Assembly (NCBI RefSeq): GCF_000193375.1
Contig: NC_015315.1
Span: forward strand, 690,622-754,621
DNA from: Thermoproteus uzoniensis 768-20
GTDB taxonomy: Archaea > Thermoproteota > Thermoprotei > Thermoproteales > Thermoproteaceae
DNA length: 64,000 nucleotides
Reading direction: 5' to 3'
In this document: one piece after another, positions 9,116 through 31,847 of the stretch
Layout of the letters: every line of letters begins with the position of its first letter
Numbering within the stretch: the first letter of the stretch is position 1
The notes under the pieces: model-generated
Seen by the model: the letters and a program-made list of their open reading frames with translations, nothing else
Told to the model about the DNA's origin: nothing
Databases searched by the model: none
Made by a program: the position numbers and the translations under genes

Positions 9116-9272
9116 GCGAGGCAGTGAGGCATCGATATAAAAACATTTAATCCGCCGCCGAGATCTAGCCCTATATGCTTAGGACTGAGAGCGGGGGAGA
9201 GGGGACGGCAATTCCGCTAGACATATCAAAATATAACGTAAAGTTTTTATCCTAGACATCGACCATTCTTCT

Positions 9273-9554
9273 ATGTGCCTTACTCGGTCTTTGTTGGCGC
9301 GTTTTTATGGTTCTTTGGATTTTTCTCTTAGGGGTCTTCTTCATTTTAAGTCTCTTGCGGCTTTGGGCTATCCCTTTGATAAGGTTCTTCTTGAAGAGCC
9401 TTGGAGGACATACGACGTATTGACGTCGCTAGTGGGCAGACACAACGCAGAGCTAATACTGACAATGCTCCACAAATGGCTAAACAACAACGGATGCACA
9501 ATAGACCCAGAAACGCTGAGAAAATACCTAACAACAAAGGAGATGTGGGGCTAG
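9273..9554 (+). CDS. Unknown 93-residue protein, paralogue of 30877-31143
   Basis: Mostly helical small protein. It shares the pattern FY-SLD...R..L......LG..F......LE-P...Y..L...VG-HNA........KWL with the gene at 30877-31143, so both belong to one family; I do not recognise it. A TATA-like GTTTTTATCC (9242-9251) gives a leaderless start. Codon use is extraordinary. In codons 1-45 the third base is T or G in 41 cases; in codons 46-93 it is never T and is A or C in 34 cases. The gene ends overlapping the 3' end of carA by 4 nt. Confidence 0.75.
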   Translation: MCLTRSLLARFYGSLDFSLRGLLHFKSLAALGYPFDKVLLEEPWRTYDVLTSLVGRHNAELILTMLHKWLNNNGCTIDPETLRKYLTTKEMWG

Positions 9555-30845: not shown

Positions 30846-30876
30846 GTGAGGGGAGAAAGAGGTTGTAGAAAAACGC

Positions 30877-31143
30877 TTAGTTGCCTATTGCCTTTCTCTG
30901 TAGCCACTTGGCGTACATTATCATGAATACGTCTGCGTTGTGTTTTCCTACGGCTTTGGATAGGGCTTGGTAGATCTCGTCGGGTTTTTCTAGGGCTATT
31001 TCCTCGAAGGTCTTCCCCAAGACTCTAGCCAACCTCACGTCCAGCACAGCCCTATAGCTGCTGTCCAGAGAGCTGTAGAACTCCAACAACTTCCCCCTAG
31101 CCATCCTCACTTCCCCAACCCGAGCCCTCACAACCGCCGACAT
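30877..31143 (-). CDS. Unknown 88-residue protein, paralogue of 9273-9554
   Basis: Helical protein sharing FYSSLDSSYR, a LEKP turn, a VGKHNAD motif and a KWL end with the gene at 9273-9554. Family unknown to me. A strong TATA-like stretch (TTTTTATTTTTAAAGG, about 31156-31171, minus strand) fits a leaderless start. As in the paralogue, codon third positions flip mid-gene: codons 1-44 end in T or G in 34 cases, codons 45-88 never end in T and end in A or C in 36 cases. Confidence 0.78.
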   Translation of the reverse strand: MSAVVRARVGEVRMARGKLLEFYSSLDSSYRAVLDVRLARVLGKTFEEIALEKPDEIYQALSKAVGKHNADVFMIMYAKWLQRKAIGN

Positions 31144-31211
31144 GCCCCCACTTTACCTTTAAAAATAAAAAACTTGCGAAGCGCCGAGAGAACACATCCC
31201 ACATATAAAAA

Positions 31212-31847
31212 TTACGGAGTTGCGCGCCGACACGCGCTCGGATCGGCGCCAGATATTGAGAACCAGAAGGAGCATTCGTACGTCTGTATAGCCCGCGCCA
31301 CGAATAGGTAGCGCTGGCGGTCGTAGTACCTCTCGGCTATGCGCTCCGCTACGGCCTCCACGTCCTCGTAGGGCCGCGAGAAGAGGTCGAGGAACTCAGT
31401 CGACTTGAACCCGTTGGATTTAAGCCAGGCCGAGAGCTGGGCGCATGCGCGGCCCCAGACGGGCAGATTCACCGTCATGGCGACGGCCAGATCGCCCATG
31501 GTGCCGTTCAGGGCCAGCCAAGAGAGGAAGTGCGTGTACGCTACGGCAAATGGGTCGAGCGCATCCCAGCTGAACGCGACGCCGAGCTCTCTCGCCATCT
31601 CGCCGAGGGCCCTAAGGGCGGCGTAGTCGCCGTCCACGAGCGCCTTCAAGAAGGCCAGCTCGACGCCGTCGCTGGCCCTCCCCATGGCGGCCGAGAGAGC
31701 CCTCAAGTCGTACTGCACTATGTAGAGCTGGTTCGCCACAAACCTCTTCACAGAAGCCGTGTCGGGGCTCCGCAACGCCGGCGCTTCGAAGATCCTCTCG
31801 TTCAACGCCGCCAGCTCCCGCCTAAGCTCCTCGATCACGCCGGCCAT
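31212..31847 (-). CDS. TenA-like protein lacking the catalytic Cys
   Basis: 211 residues of the TenA/THI-4/PqqC fold. An Asp-containing helix (FVANQLYIVQYDLRALS) and the late YECSFWFS motif, with the conserved Glu at 191, match TenA. The position that carries Cys135 in thiaminase II (LLPC in the neighbour) reads NLPVWGR here, so the Cys is absent. It may be a TenA of the Cys-less class or a non-catalytic partner of the upstream gene, with which it overlaps by 13 nt. ATG at 31847 is chosen from family length. Confidence 0.78.
   Translation of the reverse strand: MAGVIEELRRELAALNERIFEAPALRSPDTASVKRFVANQLYIVQYDLRALSAAMGRASDGVELAFLKALVDGDYAALRALGEMARELGVAFSWDALDPFAVAYTHFLSWLALNGTMGDLAVAMTVNLPVWGRACAQLSAWLKSNGFKSTEFLDLFSRPYEDVEAVAERIAERYYDRQRYLFVARAIQTYECSFWFSISGADPSACRRATP

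Follow-up and report, generated by a model that had tools for sequence, protein, structure and literature searches.

A keto-to-amino composition switch in two small Thermoproteus genes, probably a scar of ectopic gene conversion

Two paralogous genes with a mid-gene switch in codon endings

The window is a 64,000-nucleotide stretch, positions 690622-754621 of the single 1,936,063-base contig of Thermoproteus uzoniensis 768-20 (hereafter, G000). At 30877..31143 on the minus strand it carries a gene for an 88-aa small helical protein with a weak resemblance to the NitrOD5/archaeal Death-domain-like type, and at 9273..9554 on the plus strand a paralogous gene of 93 aa. Both change their codon endings near the middle. 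We refer to T and G as keto (K) and to A and C as amino (M) bases, and to a keto-rich half followed by an amino-rich half as a K->M flip. In the 30877 gene, codons 1-44 (31012..31143, minus strand) end in T or G in 34 of 44 cases (G 26, T 8, C 8, A 2), and codons 45-88, which together with the stop codon occupy 30877..31011, end in A or C in 36 of 44 (A 18, C 18, G 8, T 0). In the 9273 gene, codons 1-45 are T/G-ending and codons 46-93 mostly A/C-ending, with T-ending codons dropping from 27 of 44 to 0 of 49.

A preliminary description of this DNA had reported the reading frame, strand and half counts of the 30877 gene, the motifs FY.SLD, LE.P and HNA...KWL common to both genes, the recurrence of the flip in the paralogue and a switch within about a dozen codons of the homologous place. 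All of these stand: the counts are exact, the motifs are present in both genes, and the switches, at codons 44 and 45, are 13 aligned codons apart. It had also argued that replication direction alone cannot account for a flip in genes on opposite strands. The pattern is indeed not an ordinary replication skew, but the strand argument itself is uninformative, because reverse complementation leaves a keto-left/amino-right switch unchanged.

In simulations based on the codon usage of G000 and with a free cut point, none of 20,000 trials reached the flip of either gene, and with a fixed cut the flips of the 30877 and 9273 genes stood at 6.3 and 6.8 SD. Called genes were ranked on amino-acid-corrected residuals, with synonymous codons permuted within each gene, and the strongest two K->M flips among 1,294 genes (1.26 Mb, 65% of G000) were the 30877 gene and its twin elsewhere in the genome (z 5.8); gene calls were mechanical, and the 9273 gene, absent from the called set, had a z of 6.0 on a simpler scale. 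Besides third positions, codon positions 1 and 2 are polarised, and in the 30877 gene the compositional shift extends about 60 bp into the 5' non-coding DNA.

The similar place of the flip in two diverged paralogues might point to a constraint intrinsic to the gene or family, such as a translation ramp, mRNA structure or codon choice linked to the protein. The transcripts also form slightly more stable structures than their shuffled versions (z -1.5 and -2.0), as would be the case if the keto and amino halves paired. Such a constraint fits poorly with the polarised codon positions 1 and 2 and 5' non-coding DNA, and an mRNA hairpin was rejected as the cause, since these folding scores are small and it leaves the tract limits described below unexplained. 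The preliminary description had favoured a family-wide, gene-linked property. We gathered relatives of the small-protein family from 61 genomes: the orthologue nearest to the 30877 gene, from Thermoproteus sp. CP80 (L034, 72% amino acid identity), has no flip, the CP80 orthologue of the 9273 gene (L051) has none either, and in the rest of the family, the third lineage within G000 (L003) included, nearly every member has uniform or even opposite codon endings. Uniform members were the outcome that the preliminary description had itself named as telling against its proposal, which is further contradicted by unrelated genes, CC1-like and RfcS, that in this and related genomes have the flip if a homogenised copy is shared, and nowhere outside the shared part. 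We therefore consider an intrinsic constraint very improbable.

Homogenised tracts around these and unrelated genes

Gene conversion between copies had been singled out in the preliminary description as a thing to test, and both genes do have in-genome twins within bounded tracts. The tract around the 30877 gene (30876..31219, 344 bp) is 98.5% identical to genome positions 1103361-1103704 in inverted orientation and spans the gene plus 76 bp upstream, with the flip about 35 nt off the tract centre. K is 0.56 in its left half and 0.33 in its right half, with 0.48 and 0.50 in the flanks. The tract around the 9273 gene (9218..9548, 331 bp) is 92% identical to genome positions 790613-790939, and its flip lies about 25 nt off centre; K is 0.61 and 0.41 over the left and right halves, compared with 0.49 and 0.54 in the flanks. 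The flanks of both twin tracts are unrelated between the copies, the arrangement of near-identical sequence within divergent surroundings that characterises ectopic conversion tracts. Twins have nearly all flip sites in common, and the differences between them are too few for a polarity test; they are not independent observations, because the flip either predates the duplication or is common to both through conversion.

The direction of substitution was determined by parsimony against outgroups for the G000 branch. In the keto half of the 30877 gene there were 11 M>K and 1 K>M changes over all codon positions, and in its amino half 1 M>K and 12 K>M. The branch totals were 23 M>K versus 2 K>M in left halves and 2 versus 18 in right halves (Fisher 3.5e-8), so that the changes lie on the top strand to the left and on the bottom strand to the right, with a single switch, as in strand-switch clusters. 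The polarised changes are derived on G000's own branch and include amino-acid-changing sites, and codon choice alone is therefore not the explanation.

The next strongest coherent flips in G000 are in a gene with three near-identical copies, which we take to be a CC1-like chromatin protein, and in the gene for the small subunit of replication factor C (RfcS; Pfam PF08542), of which the genome also carries an ancient paralogue. The RfcS paralogues have an identity of about 0.9-1.0 over codons 1-150 and about 0.5-0.65 thereafter. Within the tract, K3 (the keto fraction at third positions) falls from 0.8-0.96 at the left end to 0.04-0.3 at the right end, with the crossover near codon 75, and past the tract it takes values of about 0.5; the amino half thus stops where the paralogue identity stops, at codon ~150 of ~320, and not at the gene end. 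Of 12 genomes, 10 have this pattern; RfcS orthologues of different species do not count as independent observations. In G002 and G017 the tract is likewise homogenised but has no flip. At the RfcS loci (L114 and L132) and their orthologues, codons 1-150 are near-identical in 12 of 12 genome pairs, apparently through long-lasting gene conversion.

For the CC1-like gene, homogenised copies had a mean difference D of 0.45 (n=27) and diverged or single copies one of 0.08 (n=11; P=8e-5), in a comparison that left aside G001, G002 and G005. The contrast also holds inside single genomes: in G007, G009, G012, G014 and G016 a flip is present in the homogenised CC1 copies and absent or slight in the diverged one. 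Homogenised CC1 tracts without a flip were seen in G001, G002 and G017, and the flip is weak in G005. Since homogenised but unflipped tracts exist, a genome-specific factor is needed. Loss of uracil or inosine repair was rejected as the cause in the unflipped species, as EndoV and UDG occur in flip and non-flip genomes alike.

At p<=0.001, the called genes of G000 include 11 with a K->M flip, 6 of which are among the 16 multi-copy genes of the 1,294 (Fisher 6e-10), compared with 0 of 4 M->K flips. In G011, of which one third (0.6 Mb) was sampled, 5 of 33 flips fall in 10 multi-copy genes (P=8e-5), with no such enrichment of M->K flips here either, and the gene with the top flip, apparently single-copy in the sample, has nevertheless a 690-bp twin, 95% identical, outside it. 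We also picked repeat families mechanically (at least 80% identity over at least 100 bp; 1.26 Mb of G000 and 0.6 Mb of G011). K was higher on the left in 15 of 17 families of G000 (Wilcoxon P=1.4e-4), in 11 of 13 once the four discovery families were removed (P=0.002) and in 6 of 7 families of the independent genome G011 (P=0.016). Tract flanks had no left-right difference in K, random length-matched segments were centred on zero, and repeats longer than 800 bp had little polarity.

Chance or replication skew would require two unusual genes among thousands, one of them duplicated. The non-independence of the twins lends it something, but p is below 1/20,000 per gene, the flip recurs in unrelated families and genomes, the held-out repeat families are polarised, and K in genes has no autocorrelation beyond a few codons in the five genomes compared; we give this explanation almost no credence. 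The same absence of longer-range autocorrelation rules out a genome-wide keto/amino patchiness. In most of these five genomes, the amino-acid-corrected K3 correlation between neighbouring codons was positive at lag 1, negative at lag 3 and weakly positive at lag 5.

The sampled stretches of G011 (L106, L217, L218 and others; genome size 1,769,823 bp) contain 51 K->M and 9 M->K flips at p<=0.005, the majority of them in single-copy genes. The lean of its single-copy genes alone (44 vs 9 at the same threshold), together with a gene-averaged K3 that falls from 5' to 3', would suit an asymmetry linked to transcription, with a surplus of keto bases close to the sense promoter and one of amino bases brought about by antisense transcription at the 3' end. 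Against this, the RfcS amino half ends with the paralogue identity rather than with the gene, diverged CC1 copies lack the flip, and the average gradient is negligible in G000; we hold such an asymmetry to be improbable as the source of the strong flips. Many flips in G011 are nonetheless in genes without a second copy at the DNA level, so that either lost partners or a second, gene-oriented source must be invoked; these genes may tend to lie near multi-copy genes (suggestive, p=0.051).

Conversion scars and candidate mechanisms

We conclude, with a probability of about three in four, that recurrent ectopic gene conversion between near-identical paralogous copies has left the flip as a scar in base composition. 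The strong flips are concentrated in homogenised tracts, are bounded by the tract and not by the gene, and switch near its centre. They are always keto-left/amino-right, on either strand, and consist of lineage-derived substitutions at all codon positions. In the proposed sequence of events, a break or invasion point would lie somewhere within the shared tract, and the invading or annealing 3'-ending single strand would be the top strand to the left of the break and the bottom strand to the right. A and C on this 3'-ending strand would drift to T and G. Many events spread over the tract would, when averaged, leave a keto-to-amino gradient crossing at the centre: a base nearer the left end would more often be left of the break, so a centre-crossing gradient is predicted, as is seen. 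Since the switch reads alike from both strands, it marks the place where the favoured strand changes sides.

Which biochemical step imposes the bias is less certain. The leading candidate, which we put forward tentatively, is a mismatch-dependent biased conversion in which keto bases on the invading strand are kept. In the heteroduplex, G.T-type mismatches with the keto base on the invading strand would be kept and A.C-type mismatches corrected to the donor, which would give symmetry of T/(T+C) and G/(G+A) on the two sides. In RfcS, both ratios do shift from the baseline outside the tract, in opposite senses on the two sides.

Direct mutation of the exposed 3' single strands during recombination, through heat-driven deamination of A and C, would have the recombination part in common with conversion and would hit A and C on the top strand to the left and on the bottom strand to the right. 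Its polarity fits bidirectional resection clusters in yeast, in which mutated C lies to the left and mutated G to the right, depending on resection, and the opposite order is rare (PMC6786661). C>T is the commonest exposed-strand change on the G000 branch (C>T 24, A>G 7, C>G 5, A>T 5), and the G000 tracts are AT-richer than the genome. Per available site, however, A>G is about equal to C>T, and the RfcS ratios move both ways, so plain cytosine deamination is insufficient. GC3 inside the RfcS tracts relative to outside is lower in G000 and even raised in the AT-rich G010, the consistent axis being keto/amino, and nearly all genomes checked encode enzymes that act on uracil and inosine. We regard deamination as somewhat less probable than mismatch-dependent conversion, and as its closest competitor.

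A further possibility is selection or drive for GT-rich 3' strands, on which RadA filaments would be stabler. Bacterial RecA prefers TG-rich single-stranded DNA, and yeast Rad51 is reported to do likewise (PMC3763553, citing Tracy 1997); a K->M switch renders both facing 3' tails GT-rich. G002 and G017 are, however, fully homogenised without a flip, and GT-rich tails are therefore not needed; moreover, a drive on the broken (recipient) copy should erode, not enrich, hot alleles. This explanation appears distinctly less probable than deamination, if not as remote as an effect of transcription.

Returning to biased conversion, single-strand annealing offers a precedent in that mismatches there are resolved according to the strand that bears the longest 3' flap (PMC9001825). 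By analogy, such strand-dependent resolution makes keto retention plausible, short of proof. Here, as there and in GC-biased gene conversion (PMC6715734), recombination between copies would bias which base is kept. Unlike in GC-biased conversion, the keto/amino bias flips with the side and is not directed towards GC, and the RfcS tracts have no net AT-to-GC excess. The yeast break clusters (PMC6786661) are similar in that the affected strand switches once, with the same polarity, in connection with homologous repair. They are bursts of C damage, whereas the pattern described here is evolutionarily fixed, extends over 150-700 bp, involves A and C to the same degree, is linked to the homogenisation of paralogues and is visible only as fixed differences between species. 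Near-identity of copies within a cell is also known from concerted evolution in archaea, as for methanogen mtrA (PMC4632066) and copy equalisation in Haloferax (PMC11276520), the abstracts of which, in contrast, do not mention strand-polarised composition. In the literature searched, which included few subscription papers, we found no previous description of conversion tracts with a keto/amino polarity.

As a working proposal that we hold somewhat short of even odds, the Thermoproteales may have a strand-polarised biased conversion in which the invading 3' strand keeps keto and loses amino bases, an activity lost in G002 and G017. Every tract that recombines recurrently would then come to mirror itself, keto to the left and amino to the right, so that its centre and ends could be read from the sequence, and loss of the activity in some lineages would mean that a single factor may govern the polarity. 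If this is correct, genome sequences of these hyperthermophiles record the sites of ectopic recombination, the tract lengths and the strand acted on, without crosses or mutation-accumulation lines, and species with and without the flip form a natural genetic contrast for locating the repair factor. Strand-polarised recombination bias could then also drive amino-acid changes, as in the 30877 and 9273 genes, and a within-gene switch in codon usage can be a recombination scar and not a translation signal.

The small proteins and their neighbourhood

The predicted structure of the 30877 protein is a compact bundle of five helices (pLDDT ~95 over the core). The NitrOD5 profile (Pfam PF11537) matches at E 0.003 with 18 bits, below its cut-off of 27, and four of eight family members match it weakly. 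The NitrOD5 domain has been assigned to an archaeal Death-domain-like family (PMC5847659). The proteins resemble this family in the weak Pfam match, the all-helical predicted fold, the multiple stand-alone copies and a KaiC neighbour at the 790664 copy, and differ from it in the sub-threshold Pfam score. A fold search of the predicted model against the PDB matched no solved Death-domain structure; the best match was the uncharacterised Pyrococcus protein PH0832 (2p9x), a weak one (E 0.36, TM 0.53). A sequence search of the PDB returned nothing significant, with PH0832 again weak by profile (E 0.43). A viral origin was rejected, as no relative was found among viral contigs.

Directly downstream of the 790664 copy, the twin of the 9273 gene, lies a gene for a two-domain KaiC-like ATPase (L009:1773-2888; PF06745, E 3.5e-28), and no such neighbour was seen at the 30877 or 9273 copies. 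This suggests that the 790664 copy and the ATPase gene represent the ancestral operon context, which is missing at the 9273 copy. The small proteins are plausibly adapters in KaiC-type signalling, a role that would be unrelated to the flip. Next to an intact copy at genome position 311417 there is a further, degraded family member (311775-311948; L006, L013), which has an internal TAA.
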